Positions 15,513-23,080 of a stretch of DNA of 64,000 nt are shown one piece after another. A model generated the notes under the pieces. That model was given only the letters and a program-made list of their open reading frames with translations. It searched no databases and had not been told where the DNA came from. Within the stretch, counting starts at the first letter, position 1; each line of letters begins with the position of its first letter. The position numbers were made by a program, and so were the translations under genes. This DNA is from Cellulophaga sp. HaHa_2_95 (GTDB lineage: Bacteria; Bacteroidota; Bacteroidia; Flavobacteriales; Flavobacteriaceae): positions 248,001-312,000 of the forward strand of contig NZ_CP058988.1 of assembly GCF_019278565.1 (NCBI RefSeq). The letters run 5' to 3'.

Positions 15513-15564
15513 AAATACTTATCTTTAAAGCCCCAAAAGCAACGTATTGCTTAGCACCAACAAA

Positions 15565-17046
15565 ATGAACCAAGACCACGATACTATTACGCCTGAATTT
15601 ATAGATGTATTGAGAAAAGAAGGAAACAAAGCCTGGAGTATTTGTCTTTCATTAAATGCTGATCATAAATTTAAAAGCGCCTTAAAAGGAATTACTGATG
15701 AAAGTTTTTCTGGAACACAATACAAAGCAGAACATTTGGTTCTGAGAGATATTGTTACCTTATACAATACTTTCACCTTAACATATAATGCAAAATCAAG
15801 AATACCAAATAAGATAAAATTTACCCTTATTTTTCTTTATGAAAAACTTCAAGGAAAAGATCTTGCTCAGTCTTTTGATATTCAAAAATTAGCAAAGCTA
15901 CCCTTAGCGAAACATTTTGATGATAATGTGCAACTTATCCAGGACACCTCTTTTTTTCAACCTAAAGAAGCACTTAAAACAGAATACATTGCTACTTTAA
16001 TTTTAGATCAAATAAAAAGTAATGAGTTTGATGCCATAGCGTCCTTTTTAAATAGGATTGCGTTACTAATGGCACAAGCTGATGGCGTGGTCGCCGAAAA
16101 AGAAGAGCAGTTATTAAAGACTATTTCTAAAAAAATTACAAATCCAAAAAGAAGCTTAGACCATTCTAACTACATAGAAGTTCCTGAAGATGATACGATA
16201 GAAAAAGTCTTAGAAGAGTTAAACGAACTTGTTGGTTTAGAAGAGATCAAGAAAAATGTAAATGATCTTATCAATTTCTTAAAAGTTCAAAAAATAAGAG
16301 AAGAGAAGGGTTTAAAAGCCAATAAAACGTCACTTCACTTTGTTTTTATGGGACCTCCTGGAACAGGTAAAACTACGGTAGCAAGAATGCTAGGAAGAAT
16401 TTTCAAACATTTAGGATACTTAAAAAGGGGGCATCTAGTAGAAACAGATAGATCTGGTATGGTTGCAGGCTATGTTGGTCAGACGGCATTAAAGGCCGAT
16501 GAAATTATTAGCGCTGCTTCAGACGGAGTTCTTTTTATTGACGAAGCATACTCTTTGATCTCTGGGGGATTAAATGACTTTGGATCAGAAGCCATTGAAG
16601 TTCTTTTAAAACGTATGGAAGACTTAAGAGACAGCCTCGTTGTTGTGGTTGCTGGGTATCCTGATGAAATGGAGATTTTTATCCAATCAAATCCCGGACT
16701 ACAATCTCGCTTTAATCGCTATTTAAATTTTGATCATTACAAACCAGATGCTTTATTAGCCATTTTTAAGTTAATTACTAAGAAATCTGACTTTACACTT
16801 ACTCCTGATGCTGAAGACAAACTTTCTGAAATTATCATAAGCGTTTATAATAAAAGACATAAAAGTTTTGGTAATGCTAGAACCATGCGTAATCTATTCG
16901 AAAAAATAATTCAAAGGCAAGCCAATAGAATTGTCAATATTACTCCAATAACTGAAGAAATCTTAATTACGATTACTGAAGAAGATATTCCTGAAATAGC
17001 TGTCGCCGTAAAAGAGATTAGCGTTTTTGATACTGAAAATTCCTAA
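15565..17046 (+). CDS. AAA+ ATPase, CbxX/CfxQ type, with TerB-like helical domain
   Basis: A 493-residue cytoplasmic ATPase. I chose the ATG at 15565; the frame is open from a TTG at 15547, which would add six residues. An N-terminal region ends in a TerB-like helical segment (about 150-190, IALLMAQADGVVAEKEEQLL). The AAA+ core follows, with Walker A GPPGTGKT (about 263-270), Walker B VLFIDEA (about 322-328), the CbxX-type loop VAGYVGQTA between them and a C-terminal lid. CbxX/CfxQ ATPases remodel client proteins (the prototype is rubisco activase). No rubisco is here; the five-base gap to the next gene and the following genes place it in a membrane/ABC locus. Confidence 0.85.
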   Translation: MNQDHDTITPEFIDVLRKEGNKAWSICLSLNADHKFKSALKGITDESFSGTQYKAEHLVLRDIVTLYNTFTLTYNAKSRIPNKIKFTLIFLYEKLQGKDLAQSFDIQKLAKLPLAKHFDDNVQLIQDTSFFQPKEALKTEYIATLILDQIKSNEFDAIASFLNRIALLMAQADGVVAEKEEQLLKTISKKITNPKRSLDHSNYIEVPEDDTIEKVLEELNELVGLEEIKKNVNDLINFLKVQKIREEKGLKANKTSLHFVFMGPPGTGKTTVARMLGRIFKHLGYLKRGHLVETDRSGMVAGYVGQTALKADEIISAASDGVLFIDEAYSLISGGLNDFGSEAIEVLLKRMEDLRDSLVVVVAGYPDEMEIFIQSNPGLQSRFNRYLNFDHYKPDALLAIFKLITKKSDFTLTPDAEDKLSEIIISVYNKRHKSFGNARTMRNLFEKIIQRQANRIVNITPITEEILITITEEDIPEIAVAVKEISVFDTENS

Positions 17047-17051
17047 AATAT

Positions 17052-17552
17052 ATGAGCATACAAGATATTATTACCTGGTTTGACTCGCACCATGCTGCTG
17101 TTCTCTACTATTTCGGGATAGCACTGGCACTTGCGCTACTTTGCACCTACATCGTAAATGCAAAAAATATTAGTACGGTAAAATATGTCATGTCCTTTTT
17201 AGTATACGCAGTGACTATTCCTGGCGTTTTAGCCCTTTTCTTGTTATTATATAATATTTTATTTCTAGGCTCAAGCGTGCTTCAACTAGGTTTGGTTACC
17301 TATTTTTTACCCATAGTAGCCATGATATTAATTCTTCTAATTTTAAATAGAAAAATTAAAATGTCTAAATTACCAGGGTTTACGCGCTTATCTAGTTTAA
17401 TTATTATCATAGGAATATCATTTGTCCTATTATTCATACTCCAGAGGTCATACTTTGGAGTGATATTCTTAGGAGGCTTTACACAACTTTTACTAGTCTT
17501 TGCAGTTATAATGATAGTATTGAGAGTTGCTTGGAATAAATTTGCAAAATAA
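17052..17552 (+). CDS. Small polytopic membrane protein of the AAA/ABC locus
   Basis: A 166-residue, almost wholly hydrophobic protein with about five transmembrane segments (near 14-36, 43-67, 73-96, 113-131 and 137-160). It starts five bases after the AAA+ ATPase stop, so the two are surely co-transcribed. I do not recognise a family or a transport motif. It is likely a membrane anchor or partner for the AAA+ ATPase, inferred from position only. Confidence 0.75.
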   Translation: MSIQDIITWFDSHHAAVLYYFGIALALALLCTYIVNAKNISTVKYVMSFLVYAVTIPGVLALFLLLYNILFLGSSVLQLGLVTYFLPIVAMILILLILNRKIKMSKLPGFTRLSSLIIIIGISFVLLFILQRSYFGVIFLGGFTQLLLVFAVIMIVLRVAWNKFAK

Positions 17553-17623
17553 TTTGTAACAAAGTTGAAATACCGAATACCTATAAAAAGAGAAGAAAAT
17601 AGCATTTAATAAGTAGTAAATAA

Positions 17624-17656
17624 GCTATAATAGGTAAAATTACCTAATTTTATAGC
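17624..17656. repeat. Long AT-rich inverted repeat between two gene blocks
   Basis: The arms GCTATAA and TAGGTAA (17624-17637) are mirrored by TTACCTA (17640-17646) and TTATAGC (17650-17656), with a two-base centre and a three-base bulge. It lies in the 156-base gap between the small membrane protein and the coiled-coil gene. It may be an operator or an RNA hairpin; there is no T-run, so it is not a clear terminator. Confidence 0.5.
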
Positions 17657-17708
17657 CTGATACTGCCAACAGAACATATTTTAACAGTAAAAGATAACCA
17701 CCCTTGCC

Positions 17709-18407
17709 ATGGCAAAAGAAAAATTTAATTGGAAATCACTTTTTGTAAATGACGAAAATGCGTCAACGACCACTGCTTCTAAAGCAGAAGAAAAGATTGA
17801 TTTTCCGAATGAACCAACACCAACATCAACTAGCACTCAGTTTCCACAAAGCAGTGCTCCTCAGCGCAGCCAAGTAACATCTTCTAACATTGATAACGCT
17901 ATCTTAAATAGTGTTATTGAAATGTATGAATCTGGATTTGAATCATTAAACCTACCGGGATATGATTTTTATGAATTTTTTAAAGCGATAAAAGCCGTAG
18001 GTTCTAACGATCCTAATGTATATAAAATGGCGTTTACTATGGCCCAAAGTGTTGATGCTAAAGTAACCAAAGCGTCGCTTTTAGATGGTGCAAATTTCTA
18101 TATTAAAGAAATTAATGATGTACATGAGCAGTACCACACCAAGGGAAATGCCAAAAAAGAAGAATTTCAATCTAGCTTATTACAACAGAAAGAAACCTTA
18201 TCTACCGAGGTAGCTGAATTGGAAAAACAAATTCTTCAATTACAAACTCAGGCTAGTGATAAAAAAAATCAGTTGAATGCGCTGGAAAATGGAACTTCTA
18301 GCGAGATGACAGATATAGAACAAAAAATTACTGCGAATGATATCGCGAAAACAAAAATTCTGGAGATTATTACAACAGTAGCAGACGGAATTAAAATCAA
18401 CCTATAA
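17709..18407 (+). CDS. Soluble coiled-coil protein of the AAA/ABC locus
   Basis: A 232-residue protein with no signal or membrane segment. The first 60 residues are Ser/Thr/Pro-rich and probably disordered. Residues 60-135 form a helical domain (MYESGFESLNLPGYDFYEFFKA), and about 140-215 is a coiled coil rich in Glu, Gln and Lys. The family is not recognised. Ten bases separate it from the next gene, a membrane coiled-coil protein, so the two are likely co-made and may interact through their coiled coils. Clusters of this general type elsewhere carry TelA/XpaC-like coiled-coil proteins in similar positions; whether this is a distant relative cannot be decided by eye. Confidence 0.7.
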   Translation: MAKEKFNWKSLFVNDENASTTTASKAEEKIDFPNEPTPTSTSTQFPQSSAPQRSQVTSSNIDNAILNSVIEMYESGFESLNLPGYDFYEFFKAIKAVGSNDPNVYKMAFTMAQSVDAKVTKASLLDGANFYIKEINDVHEQYHTKGNAKKEEFQSSLLQQKETLSTEVAELEKQILQLQTQASDKKNQLNALENGTSSEMTDIEQKITANDIAKTKILEIITTVADGIKINL

Positions 18408-18417
18408 ATACCCTTAA

Positions 18418-19539
18418 ATGAATACTGAAGAATCAAAAAGTCATGTATTAGACTTACCTATTTTAAAGCATTTTGATGACGAAAAGGGTGAAATTTCATT
18501 AAACCCTAACAACTGGAGAAATGGTGAAAAAGGGTTAAATACCGCTATAAAACTAGCCTTGTTTGCTGCCGTTGGTTATGGCGCTTGGGTGTACATTTTA
18601 CCACCGCTTTTCACTGCCTTAGGACAAATCATTGCCCTAGCCGGTGTTGCTATCTTTGTCGTATTCTTTATCTTAATGCTTCCTGTAATTTTCAAAGGGT
18701 TGCGTAGGCTAACAAGAGCGTTACATAAATCGCTAATAAAATACGATCCGTTTGGGGAGCTGCACGAGCAAAAGCAGAAGATGCTTAGAAACCGAAAAGT
18801 TTTTAAAGAGTCTAAAGCAAAAATAAAAGCATTAAAAAGCAATATGGAAGCAGAGTCTTTCAAAGCTGAGAAAGAAGCAAAAGACTATCAAGACCGTGTT
18901 GTAACCTTACAGAAACAAGCTCAGAAGATTAAAACTGAGATGGAACGTTTAGTGGGAGAGAAAGGTTCTGCAGGAAAAGATACCGATGAGTATGTGGAAT
19001 TACATAGTGCATTAGCTAAGAAATTATCTGAATCACAACGTGTAACTCATCAATTAGAACAAAGCAAAAGCTTTATTCAAAAATATGGAAGCCGTGCTAA
19101 TGTAATGGGAAAGCTAGACCGTAAACTTACTTTAGCAGGAACAGCCATAGATATTAAGATATCAGATTTTGAAGTTACCATTCAGATGCTAGAGAAAGAA
19201 TATGCTTTTGCTAAATCTGCAAGAGAAGCTACAGAAGGAGCAAAATCTGCCATGCATTTCACCAAAGACTGGGAACTAGAATATGCTTTAGACGTGATTA
19301 CAGAAACTATTGCTATGGATATAGCTAGAACGCAAGAGAACTTATCAGATATAGATATGCTTACTAGCAAGTATGATATTGATAATGATGAATTGTATTC
19401 TCAATTAGACACTTTAGCTGATAAAATAAAAACAGGAAAAGATTATGTTCCTGATTCTAAGAAATACAAGAATCCAAATTACAAACTAACACAAGAAGAC
19501 AAGCAAGAGAGTGGCGGTTTTGGAAATATGTTTGATTAA
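18418..19539 (+). CDS. Membrane-anchored coiled-coil protein of the AAA/ABC locus
   Basis: A 373-residue protein. A short soluble N-terminus is followed by two hydrophobic segments (about 42-62 and 66-93) forming a hairpin. A basic stretch and a long charged coiled coil follow (about 110-240), then another helical region (about 240-345, TIQMLEKEYAFAKSAREA). The tail is Gly-rich and ends with FGNMFD. The helical body brings PspA/IM30-like proteins to mind, but the transmembrane hairpin and the lack of clear PspA motifs argue against a firm assignment. It lies between the soluble coiled-coil protein and the binding-protein/OmpA fusion in one operon. Function is unknown. Confidence 0.7.
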   Translation: MNTEESKSHVLDLPILKHFDDEKGEISLNPNNWRNGEKGLNTAIKLALFAAVGYGAWVYILPPLFTALGQIIALAGVAIFVVFFILMLPVIFKGLRRLTRALHKSLIKYDPFGELHEQKQKMLRNRKVFKESKAKIKALKSNMEAESFKAEKEAKDYQDRVVTLQKQAQKIKTEMERLVGEKGSAGKDTDEYVELHSALAKKLSESQRVTHQLEQSKSFIQKYGSRANVMGKLDRKLTLAGTAIDIKISDFEVTIQMLEKEYAFAKSAREATEGAKSAMHFTKDWELEYALDVITETIAMDIARTQENLSDIDMLTSKYDIDNDELYSQLDTLADKIKTGKDYVPDSKKYKNPNYKLTQEDKQESGGFGNMFD

Positions 19540-19573
19540 CTTTTTAAATACTAAATAACTAAACACAATAACA

Positions 19574-21388
19574 ATGGGTAAGATTTTACGAACAAAAAAA
19601 CTCACCACCTTATCAGAATTATTAATCGTAGTCGTCCTACTAGGGGGTATACTAGGTGCTGTCTATTATTTTGCACCAGGATTGCGAGTTGGTGAAGCTA
19701 AAACACTAGATGAGCTAAATGTAGATAAGAATGAAGTAAACAATGTAATTACTTCTGCAAAACTACCATTACCATCTACTAGCACCTCTAGTGATGTTAA
19801 GAACAAACCACTAGTGCGTATTGCCGCTTATGCATGGAATGCACAATCTGGTATTATTGTAGCTAACGGAGGACCTAAAACTACCAAAGGTTCTTTAATG
19901 GAACGTAATGGGGTTAATCTTGAAATTATTCGTCAGGATTGGTTGTCAGAATTACGTAACATGCAGATGAAATTCGTTGAAGAATTTGATCGAGGTGAAG
20001 AGTATCCTGATGCCGATAAAAGTGCTTTTGCTATTATCATGATGGGAGATGGTGCTCCATTTTACATCAGTACTATGCAACAAGCATTAGATGATAAATT
20101 TGGAAAAGACAAATACCACGTACAAGTAGTTGGTGCAGTAGGTATCAGTTATGGTGAAGATAAATTAATTGGTCCACCAAGTTGGAAAGTAGATCCTAAA
20201 AGCATGAAAGGTGCTTTAATTTCAACTGTTCTAGGTGATGGTGACTGGGTTACAGCACTTAATTATGCTTTTGCAAACGGACTTAAAGTAAATCCAGATT
20301 CTAATACGTATGATCCTGAAGCGGTAAACTTCTACCCTTCTCAAGATGATGATTATATAAAATCTGCTGAAGAACTTATTAAATCTCAAAAATCTGGATG
20401 GACAGTTCCTTTAAAAGAGGTTAAAAACGGAAAACTTACCGGAAAAACAATCAATAAAAAGATTGATGGTTGCGCTACGTGGACCCCTGGTGATAAAATG
20501 GTTTTTGATGCTTTAAGCGGATTTACCGATGTTGCTTCTACCAAAGAATTTAATAATCAAATGGCTACTACAGTTATTGCGGTTAAAGAATGGTCTACAC
20601 AACATCCACAAATTGTAAGTAACATATTGAAGTCGGCCTTAACAGCTTCAAACCAAATGAAACAATATGATGAGTGGCAGGTAAGAGCTTCTGAAGCTGT
20701 TGCAGATACTTATGATCTTGAAAATGCTAAATACTGGTATGATATGTTTAAAGGTCAGAAAGGAAGTAAAAACGGAATTGACTACAACATGGGTGGATCA
20801 AGAGTTTTTAACTATTCTGATGTAATGCAATATTACGGGATTACAGATGGTACCAACCGTTACAAGGCAGTATACAACCAAGTATCTACCTACTTAAAGG
20901 AATTAAATCCTTTTGGTTTCAATGAATCTGTAAAACGTATTGTTCCTTACGAAGAAGCGGTAAACTTGTACTTCATTAAAAACATTAATGATATTGAGTC
21001 TGGTACAGCGTACAAAGCAGATTATACGAAAGAAGCTAGTGAAGTAATGGCCTCTGGAGAATGGAATATTAGTTTTGATACGGGTAGCGCAAATATTTCT
21101 GCGTCTTCTCAAAGCACTTTAGAGACCATTTACAACCTTTTAATCCAAGCAGAAGACACCAAGCTTAGCTTAGAGGGCCATACAGATGATACAGGTTCTA
21201 GTGAAGCTAACTATGACTTATCACAACGAAGAGCACAAGCTGTAGTAAACTTCTTAAGAAGTAAAGGCATTCCTCAGTCCCGTTTTCAAAACGTAATTGG
21301 AAAAGGAGAAGATGAGCCTGTTGAAAGTAATACAACAAATTCTGGAAGAGCTAAAAACCGTAGGGTAGTTATTGTTCTTTTAAAATAA
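19574..21388 (+). CDS. ABC solute-binding-like protein fused to OmpA peptidoglycan-binding domain
   Basis: A 604-residue protein. It is anchored in the inner membrane by one N-terminal helix (about 13-34) and not by a lipobox. Residues 60-450 look like a periplasmic binding protein of the phosphate/nitrate/taurine ABC class, with segments such as GVNLEIIRQDWLSEL and FAIIMMGDGAPFYIS. Residues 487-604 are an OmpA C-terminal domain (LEGHTDDTGSSEANYDLSQR), with the Asp and Arg pattern that binds peptidoglycan. The fusion would tie the binding module to both membrane and cell wall. It is followed by a terminator-like hairpin and then the permease and ATPase. Substrate is unknown. Confidence 0.85.
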   Translation: MGKILRTKKLTTLSELLIVVVLLGGILGAVYYFAPGLRVGEAKTLDELNVDKNEVNNVITSAKLPLPSTSTSSDVKNKPLVRIAAYAWNAQSGIIVANGGPKTTKGSLMERNGVNLEIIRQDWLSELRNMQMKFVEEFDRGEEYPDADKSAFAIIMMGDGAPFYISTMQQALDDKFGKDKYHVQVVGAVGISYGEDKLIGPPSWKVDPKSMKGALISTVLGDGDWVTALNYAFANGLKVNPDSNTYDPEAVNFYPSQDDDYIKSAEELIKSQKSGWTVPLKEVKNGKLTGKTINKKIDGCATWTPGDKMVFDALSGFTDVASTKEFNNQMATTVIAVKEWSTQHPQIVSNILKSALTASNQMKQYDEWQVRASEAVADTYDLENAKYWYDMFKGQKGSKNGIDYNMGGSRVFNYSDVMQYYGITDGTNRYKAVYNQVSTYLKELNPFGFNESVKRIVPYEEAVNLYFIKNINDIESGTAYKADYTKEASEVMASGEWNISFDTGSANISASSQSTLETIYNLLIQAEDTKLSLEGHTDDTGSSEANYDLSQRRAQAVVNFLRSKGIPQSRFQNVIGKGEDEPVESNTTNSGRAKNRRVVIVLLK

Positions 21389-21406
21389 AATAATTTTAAA
21401 ACTCAC

Positions 21407-21447
21407 AAAACCGCTCCAATTTTGCAATAGTATTTTGGCGCGGTTTT
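21407..21447 (+). terminator. Hairpin between the OmpA-fusion gene and the ABC permease
   Basis: The left arm AAAACCGC-T-CCAA (21407-21419) pairs with TTGG-C-GCGGTTTT (21435-21447): eight base pairs, one mismatch and four more base pairs, with a loop of about 15. The stem ends in TTTT. It looks like an intrinsic terminator or attenuator that would lower expression of the permease and ATPase relative to the binding protein. Confidence 0.65.
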
Positions 21448-21472
21448 ATGTTTATACTAACTTGTAATCATC

Positions 21473-22243
21473 ATGAAAAATATATTCACACCCTTTGAAA
21501 ATGTAAGCAAGAACACCCGGCTTATGATTATTCTTGTTTGGGTTTTAGCACTTTTTGGAGTTTGGTTTGCCTCAAGCATGGGCGATAGGCATTTATTCCC
21601 TTCTCCTCAACAAGTTTTACAGGGTTTTATAGAACTTTATAATGAAGGTCTGGTGGTACATATCGGAAGTTCACTTCTATTGTGTTTTTCGGCTATTATT
21701 ATCGCCATCCTTATCTCACTAACATTTAGCTACCTGTCTACCGTTCCGGTAATTCAACCCGTAGCAAAGGCCCTGAGTAAATTAAGATATTTACCGCTTA
21801 CTGGTATCACATTTTATCTAGCGATACTAATTAGTGACGCTAGAACCATGCAAATATGGGTTTTAGTCGTGTTTATGAGTACCTACCTAACCACCTCACT
21901 TTTGAGTATGGTAAATAGCATTCCCCAAGAAGAGTTTGACCATGCTAGATCTTTAGGGTGTAACCGCTGGGAAGTATTATGGGAAGTTGTGGTTAAAGGA
22001 AGAATAGATTATGTAATTGATGTTATCCGTCAAAACCTAGCTATTGTTTGGATGATGTTAGTTACGGTAGAATCTATATTGGTTGCCGCAGGAGGATTAG
22101 GTTTCCTCATTAAAAACTCTGATAAATTCATGAATCATGGAAGAATTATAGCCCTACAAATTGTGATTCTAGCCGTAGGTCTTTCTATTGATTTTGTATT
22201 AAACTATTTAAGAAAAAGCTTTTTCAGATATTCAAAAATATAA
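21473..22243 (+). CDS. ABC transporter permease, SsuC/TauC/NrtB-like
   Basis: A 256-residue inner-membrane protein with about six helices. The EAA-type cytoplasmic loop is clear (residues about 142-170: PQEEFDHARSLGCNRWEVLW), as expected of the nitrate/sulfonate/taurine permease family. It is followed six bases later by the matching ATPase. A terminator-like hairpin precedes it, so it may be read through from the OmpA-fusion gene at a reduced level. Typical homologs import oxyanions such as nitrate, sulfonate or taurine, but the unusual binding protein of this locus makes the substrate uncertain. Confidence 0.85.
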   Translation: MKNIFTPFENVSKNTRLMIILVWVLALFGVWFASSMGDRHLFPSPQQVLQGFIELYNEGLVVHIGSSLLLCFSAIIIAILISLTFSYLSTVPVIQPVAKALSKLRYLPLTGITFYLAILISDARTMQIWVLVVFMSTYLTTSLLSMVNSIPQEEFDHARSLGCNRWEVLWEVVVKGRIDYVIDVIRQNLAIVWMMLVTVESILVAAGGLGFLIKNSDKFMNHGRIIALQIVILAVGLSIDFVLNYLRKSFFRYSKI

Positions 22244-22249
22244 TTAGAG

Positions 22250-23080
22250 ATGAATTACAGCAGTGAAAATACATTACTCTATGTTGAAAACCTAAGCGTT
22301 GCTTATGGTGATAAAACAATCATAAAGGATATTAACCTTGTTGAAAAAGATGTTATTAGAACAGGTGAAGTCACAGGGCAAGTTATTGCCGTTGTAGGCC
22401 GCTCTGGAACAGGAAAATCTACCTTCTTCAAAGCTTTAACAGGTTTAGTAAAGCCTACTTCCGGAAAAGTATTAATTGCAGATACGACCACCGAGAATGC
22501 CCAAAATGATGCTAAAGAGGTGCATGAAGGAGATATTGGTTTTGTAGATCAAAAATATACCTTGTTTAGAAACAAAACAGTCTATGAAGCCTTACTTTTT
22601 GCTTTGCGTAATAAGGAGATGCCTAAAGAAGCTAAACATGAGCAAATTGTTACCTATTTAAAAGACTGGGGACTTGAAAAAGCAAAGGACCAATACCCTT
22701 GTGAGCTTTCTGGTGGGCAACGCCAAAGAACCGCTATTATAGAACAGATATTTTCATCGGGGCACTACATGGTCTTAGACGAACCTTTTTCTGGTTTAGA
22801 CGTTGGTAATATTGAAGATGTGAAAAATGCCTTTAAATTGATTACTAAGAGTCATGAATACAACACAATCATCTACTCTACCCATGACATTGAACTAGCG
22901 GTAGAATTAGCAGACAGTATTTACGTGATAGGATACCCAGAAGTAGAAGGTAAAAAAATGACGTACGGAAGTATCGTAAAGCATTTTGACATGAAAGAAA
23001 TTGGATTAGCTTGGAAAGAATTTGGACTAGGACATCTAGACATTGTTAAGCAAATAAAAACTATTATGCTTCAATCTTAG
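22250..23080 (+). CDS. ABC transporter ATP-binding protein
   Basis: A 276-residue ABC ATPase. Walker A is GRSGTGKST (about residues 50-58), the Q-loop is GFVDQKYTLF, the signature is LSGGQRQR, Walker B is MVLDEPFSGLD and the switch His is in STHD. All catalytic residues are present, so it should hydrolyse ATP. Length and sequence fit the SsuB/TauD-type partner of the preceding permease, from which it is separated by six bases. It ends the AAA/ABC block. The 3' flank (23081-23340) has no transcript terminator that I can see. Confidence 0.9.
   Translation: MNYSSENTLLYVENLSVAYGDKTIIKDINLVEKDVIRTGEVTGQVIAVVGRSGTGKSTFFKALTGLVKPTSGKVLIADTTTENAQNDAKEVHEGDIGFVDQKYTLFRNKTVYEALLFALRNKEMPKEAKHEQIVTYLKDWGLEKAKDQYPCELSGGQRQRTAIIEQIFSSGHYMVLDEPFSGLDVGNIEDVKNAFKLITKSHEYNTIIYSTHDIELAVELADSIYVIGYPEVEGKKMTYGSIVKHFDMKEIGLAWKEFGLGHLDIVKQIKTIMLQS

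Follow-up and report, generated by a model that had tools for sequence, protein, structure and literature searches.

The window examined here is a 64,000-nucleotide stretch of contig NZ_CP058988.1 (positions 248,001–312,000) from Cellulophaga sp. HaHa_2_95, in which seven open reading frames (ORFs), all on the plus strand, occupy positions 15547–23080. Five of them constitute a core that recurs elsewhere in Bacteroidota and on viral contigs. The first core gene (17709–18407, 232 aa) encodes a soluble helical/coiled-coil protein, called CC1 here, and the second (18418–19539, 373 aa) encodes CC2, which has an N-terminal membrane hairpin followed by a long helical hairpin that is probably cytoplasmic. 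They are followed by a binding protein with an N-terminal transmembrane (TM) anchor and a C-terminal OmpA domain (19574–21388, 604 aa), an ATP-binding cassette (ABC) permease whose nearest models are SaoP and TauC (21473–22243, 256 aa), and an ABC ATPase with Walker A, LSGGQ, Walker B, and the switch histidine (22250–23080, 276 aa). Ahead of the core lie the genes of an AAA+ ATPase of the SpoVK/CbxX/EccA type (15547–17046, 499 aa from a TTG start, with the ATG at 15565 chosen in the initial annotation as an alternative start in the same frame) and a membrane protein of about five helices (17052–17552, 166 aa). The intergenic gaps are short apart from those between the five-helix gene and CC1 (156 bases) and between the binding protein and the permease (84 bases), and an examination of six gaps did not reveal the full Bacteroidetes-type promoter pattern.

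Pfam and NCBIfam recognise the AAA+ protein (AAA and AAA_lid_6), the OmpA domain (E 1.5e-21), the permease (BPD_transp_1, E 1.1e-8), and the ABC ATPase (ABC_tran, E 1e-26); they do not recognise the five-helix protein, which has no match at E 0.1, the binding domain, or CC1 and CC2, whose sole matches are sub-threshold coiled-coil ones. By hydropathy, the binding protein has a single N-terminal TM helix, CC2 has two, and the small membrane protein has about five. Much of the initial annotation is thus upheld, namely seven head-to-tail genes with a CbxX-type AAA+ ATPase, a five-helix membrane protein, one soluble and one membrane coiled-coil protein of no recognised family, and a nitrate/taurine-type permease and ATPase. 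It had also described a binding protein anchored at both ends; the TM helix and the OmpA domain are there, and the identity of the domain between them leans on weak sequence matches and a predicted fold.

This middle domain of about 400 residues is highly conserved, with a mean column identity of 72% even when the rows of divergent (type B) copies are included. Its matches to transport families are weak: SsuA_fam was found in three of 21 relatives (best E 7.6e-6), a taurine-binding model in seven of 21 (best E 0.0062; 0.022 for the window protein), and NMT1_2 in two of 26. AlphaFold predicts a fairly confident alpha/beta fold (predicted local distance difference test, pLDDT, 81; predicted template modelling score, pTM, 0.77), and a sequence comparison with solved structures gave no relative (best E 0.41). 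Together, the weak matches and the predicted fold suggest a binding protein, and the permease and ATPase, which look intact by sequence, stay below the Tau/Ssu-type equivalog cut-offs. One alternative account would be a nutrient importer of the ordinary kind whose binding protein happens to be tethered, in which CC1 and CC2 only place the importer and which phages carry as auxiliary metabolism. The intact permease and ATPase, the TauC/SaoP similarity, and the weak SsuA-like signal all suit it, and the distribution of the genes, described below, bears on it from both sides.

The two hydrophobic helices of CC2 have positive charges flanking their outer sides, a pattern that favours the coiled coil being on the cytoplasmic face. 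AlphaFold places helices at residues 37–109, 113–188, and 190–272, the hairpin having a pLDDT of about 70–90. CC1 and CC2 were compared by profile with eight Bacteroidota PspA sequences. With types A and B pooled, CC2 reached 77.5% over 179 columns, and with 68 phage rows added, it reached 69.6% over a shorter stretch of 105 columns; reversed PspA gave 0.7% and 0.4%, and the best of 40 heptad-block shuffles gave 5.5%. With single PspA sequences, the median score was reached by none of 147 unrelated coil-like ORFs. The type A and type B profiles join each other at 98.7% for CC2 and 99.2% for CC1. Neither window CC1 nor CC2 matches PF04012 (PspA_IM30) above the gathering score, nor does any other protein of this genome, and none matches the Snf7/ESCRT-III family PF03357 above its gathering score. 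From the pooled profiles, CC2 is probably a remote member of the PspA superfamily. CC1 was also considered as a PspA homolog and set aside for want of a clear match, with scores at background; by sequence, its matches among solved structures are coiled coils only.

The array lies between an MscS-like channel gene and the gene of a 1169-aa TraB/GumN protein on the 5' side and an AmiA-like gene on the 3' side. In the genus sample (18 genomes, G000–G017), CC2 is present in seven genomes. The traB–amiA site was compared in 12 congeners: amiA directly follows traB in seven, exactly the seven genes stand between them in three, and about 8 kb of other genes fill the site in two. Therefore, the seven genes behave as one cassette in this genus, gained or lost together at a site that accepts other cassettes, which supports the initial annotation in treating them as one set. 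The alternative cassette (L109:3073–11070 and L111:3347–11417, minus strand) encodes a coiled-coil protein, a 352-aa protein, an AAA+ ATPase, a DUF6638 protein, and two membrane proteins, with families assigned on the L109 copy. Its AAA+ ATPase was found in three of the 18 genus genomes and in two other sampled genera (G022 and G023), and the term DUF6638 was not found in the open-licence literature searched. Mutual exclusion of the core and this cassette, found in seven and three of 18 genomes and together in none, was considered and dropped as not significant (chance 0.20).

Beyond the genus, the binding domain was found in seven of 296 sampled genomes of the phylum, including the window genome and three divergent type B copies, and CC2 in six of 296, one of which, in G291 (L019/L086, E 6.5e-4), was rejected as a false coiled-coil match, with no core gene found there. 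Scanning named genomes yielded 62 loci, with the binding protein in 62, the permease in 61, the ATPase in 60, CC2 in 47, CC1 in 46, the AAA+ gene in 24, and the five-helix gene in 19. The full core forms an uninterrupted same-strand run with a constant gene order in 45 of these loci, which is more than chance; two others are partial, and 15 lack CC1 and CC2. The type B loci L082 and L083 carry the complete core in this order (with an opposite-strand ORF between permease and ATPase in L082), and L084 shows four of its genes. The unit across Bacteroidota is thus CC1, CC2, the binding protein–OmpA fusion, the permease, and the ATPase, with the AAA+ and five-helix genes as add-ons in wider taxa. 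The grouping of all seven genes in the initial annotation holds as one unit within the genus, but wider taxa pair the ABC/OmpA genes with CC1–CC2 rather than with the two accessories. The outcome that it named as refuting it, that the ABC/OmpA genes and the AAA+ gene are independent modules, is about half borne out, and the core itself comes apart at times into triads of binding protein, permease, and ATPase without CC1–CC2 nearby and coiled-coil pairs without nearby ABC genes. Remote CC2 copies adjoin CC1-like genes in L090, L091, and L092, L094 shows CC2 alone, and L085 pairs CC2 with the five-helix gene with no ABC genes nearby. Beside the L085 pair, on the divergent strand, there is a lipoprotein-like ORF (L085:8498–9328) with a possible VWA motif seen by eye.

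For the ordinary importer, the 11 loci that have the triad alone are favourable, but CC1–CC2 stay with the triad in 45 of the 62 named loci and 49 of 78 viral loci. No pathway partner is visible, since no ORF family other than those of the seven genes recurs in more than seven of 68 loci. On balance, an importer of this plain kind appears rather improbable.

The accessory AAA+ protein has its best NCBIfam matches to SpoVK, CbbX, and EccA, all under the equivalog cut-offs (293.4 versus 422.95 bits for SpoVK and 241.1 versus 459.25 bits for CbbX). Its N-terminal 200 aa have no family assignment, and this region is poorly conserved in loci L039, L081, and L087. The initial annotation had seen a TerB-like region there and hinted at a Ter-type (TerB/TelA) stress system. 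A short TerB-like motif does exist, but the Pfam model PF05099 covers only 26 of its 118 positions (window 16060–16137) at 13.2 bits and E 0.29, below the cut-off of 24.4. TerB is absent from the 25 families listed, of 62, for 20 relatives, and none of the ten genes scanned matched TelA, TerC, or TerD at E 0.1. With the Pfam test failed, a TerB/Ter system was rejected for the array, and we regard a Ter-type function as very improbable. A TerB domain above the Pfam cut-off is encoded at G000:C1:235036–235380, about 13 kb ahead of the window start.

The core has moved between lineages. Between the window genome and Fulvivirga, the RpoB region is 66.1% identical, as against 87% for the binding protein and 84% for CC2 and the permease; for Marivirga, the values are 67.0% for the RpoB region and 85%, 79%, and 80% for the binding protein, CC2, and the permease, respectively. 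In Aquimarina and Lacinutrix, which are other Flavobacteriaceae, RpoB identity is 85–87% and the binding protein 89%. These values fit a transfer of the cassette between Cytophagales and Flavobacteriaceae. Carriage on plasmids was considered and rejected: a tblastn search of 72,556 plasmid records with the binding domain gave nothing at E 0.01, and the whole binding protein matched OmpA domains there (20 rows listed). On a metagenome-assembled contig labelled Absconditabacterales (L077:8120–14149), the flanking genes have TGA at 98 of 148 glycine codons, and the five core genes have it at none of 117. This core ends about 350 bases from the contig end, because of which a chimeric contig end is considered beside a recent import; the codon usage would suit either.

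Searching IMG/VR with the alignment of the binding domain yielded 96 relatives, and 78 loci (L159–L236) were kept, on viral contigs that range from 5 to 578 kb in length. All five genes are present in the same order and strand in 49, 17 are without a recognised CC1, and 12 have shorter sets; the AAA+ and five-helix genes were found in none of the 78, the flanks having been searched at most 6 kb a side. The terminase model phrog_2 was found in 18 of 32 records tested, mostly the longest (one only at E 5e-5), and nine of the 18 have all five core genes; the model also matches 11 of 14 control cellular genomes, so that it supports but does not prove a viral origin, and 14 of the 32 records have no match. 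Ribosomal protein S12 was found in none of 33 records, which is weak support since fragments are included. The flanks of the viral loci are rich in short ORFs; ten of these were scanned, and four have PHROG matches at E 0.001, one barely (E 7e-4). In addition, LR756500.1 (an uncultured phage of 462,018 bases), the sole match among 50,697 phage records, carries all five core genes, with identities to the window of 35% for CC1, 53% for CC2, 66% for the binding protein, 57% for the permease, and 62% for the ATPase. Two terminase frames contain internal stops, eight TGA and three TAG in G362 (L190) and one TGA and one TAA in G378 (L225), and are recoded or broken.

A FastTree phylogeny built from 79 binding domains of viral collections and 65 bacterial ones (144 in all) shows six changes between viral and bacterial labels, against a shuffled mean of 47.8; the support for the main viral clade is low (0.42). 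Viral and chromosomal binding proteins thus form largely separate lineages with few exchanges. The viral loci raise the possibility of a machine of phage conflict, in which the core of huge phages guards the envelope of the infected cell or excludes other phages, and the chromosomal copies are defensive or domesticated cargo. The 49 ordered viral sets, the terminase records with a full core, the PHROG-matching flanks, the absence of S12, and the complete set on LR756500.1 are in keeping with it, as are chromosomal copies that are patchy, horizontally moved, and inserted at a site shared with another cassette. Al-Shayeb et al. (2020; PMC7162821) likewise propose that membrane proteins of huge phages may alter susceptibility to other phages. 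Against it stand the matches of phrog_2 in cellular genomes, the records without phrog_2, and chromosomal flanks that look like housekeeping genes rather than a defence island. PADLOC gave no specific match among eight proteins, only ATPase, coil, and OmpA/MotB-type ones, and the separate clades leave a recent phage-to-host transfer unsupported. A conflict function is accordingly a minority possibility and is held tentatively.

The reading that we favour, with about an even chance of being right, is that of a mobile envelope cassette in which a wall-tethered importer is coupled to a PspA-like membrane scaffold. The core would be an ABC importer of the taurine/sulfonate/nitrate class, and the binding protein, fixed to the inner membrane by its TM helix and to peptidoglycan by its OmpA domain, would hold the importer where membrane meets wall. 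The importer would be joined to CC1 and to CC2, probably a PspA/Snf7-like hairpin that carries a membrane anchor of its own and lies on the cytoplasmic face, and the two coiled-coil proteins may form an assembly that braces or remodels the inner membrane at this place according to the state of the transporter. The AAA+ and five-helix genes would have been added later in Flavobacteriaceae and some Cytophagales, the ATPase perhaps recycling the scaffold as Vps4 does for ESCRT-III. This reading draws on the constant five-gene order in named, type B, and viral loci, the seven-gene cassette with its empty-site counterparts, the pooled profile similarity, predicted hairpin, and flanking charges of CC2, and the link between remodelling and transport put forward by Ravi et al. 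(2024). Gene content and order, cassette behaviour in the genus, horizontal movement, and occurrence on phage contigs are direct observations, whereas each functional step is an inference. Of the "stress- or envelope-linked machine" of the initial annotation, the link with the envelope is the best reading, a role in stress may be supposed, and the TerB link is not supported.

Several results weigh against a coupled importer and scaffold. The AlphaFold model of whole CC2 is weak (pLDDT 68, pTM 0.47). Type A CC2 alone scores 15.3% against PspA, no better than CC1 (14.6%), and type B CC2 alone scores 1.5%; CC1 ranges from 3% to 15%. With single PspA sequences, CC1 is at background (18 of 147 unrelated coil-like ORFs) and, for CC2, two of 150 ORFs of other kinds score as high as the PspA median; PF04012 is absent from the 25 families listed for 28 CC1 and 27 CC2 relatives. 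Furthermore, of the 15 loci without CC1 and CC2, four are on short contigs, but 11 have at least 8.9 kb upstream, and a CC2 search in nine of these 11 genomes found none in six and a remote copy elsewhere in three. Coupling is therefore not obligatory.

A broader proposal, offered as speculation that is rather unlikely to hold, is that the five-gene core is a mobile device for controlling the envelope, employed by both parties to phage–host conflict. Huge phages would use the wall-tethered ABC complex and the PspA-like scaffold to steady the host's inner membrane during infection or to seal it, and bacteria would keep chromosomal versions, some with an AAA+ recycler, which in Cellulophaga stand at an exchange site where a further AAA+/coiled-coil cassette is the alternative. 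The membrane remodellers PspA and ESCRT-III are of ancient origin. A mobile cassette that joins such a protein to a wall-fastened importer, and that is also carried by very large phages, would link three questions that are now separate, namely the sensing of the wall by membrane repair, the reason for tethering binding proteins, and the control of the host envelope by huge phages; close relatives with vacant and filled sites offer a direct means of testing this.

The initial annotation considered the layout undescribed, but one sentence of Ravi et al. (2024; mSystems, PMC11237479) already places TM-bearing homologs of PspA and Snf7 in longer operons with an AAA+ ATPase, ABC ATPase, permease, and PBPB-OmpA protein (for example, OGG56892.1) and proposes from these neighbourhoods that membrane remodelling is linked with solute transport. 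The gene layout is therefore in print; the five-gene core on phages was not found in the open-licence literature searched, including the accessible parts of PMC7162821, PMC7824862, and PMC12363816, nor are phages mentioned in the accessible part of PMC11237479. The window shares with those operons the ABC ATPase, the permease, the PBPB-OmpA protein, the AAA+ ATPase, and, probably, a TM-bearing PspA/Snf7-like coiled coil (CC2) but differs in a CC1 without a clear PspA match, in an AAA+ protein that is single-domain, of the SpoVK/CbxX type, and optional, and in the added five-helix gene. In the Jug huge phages, a pspA-like gene stands beside terD according to PMC12363816, so that a PspA-like gene on a huge phage is common to both, but the terms ABC and OmpA have no matches in its main text. 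CC2 resembles PspA/Vipp1 in its helical hairpin and remote profile similarity but has a membrane hairpin and misses the Pfam threshold, in a genome without a PF04012 match. With ESCRT-III/Vps4, the array shares the idea of a membrane polymer with an AAA+ recycler, but its AAA+ ATPase is of the SpoVK/CbxX type and the genome has no PF03357 match. Similarly, TauABC/SsuABC share the permease and ATPase class and a weak binding-domain similarity, but the binding protein here is fixed to both membrane and wall and is accompanied by coiled-coil partners.

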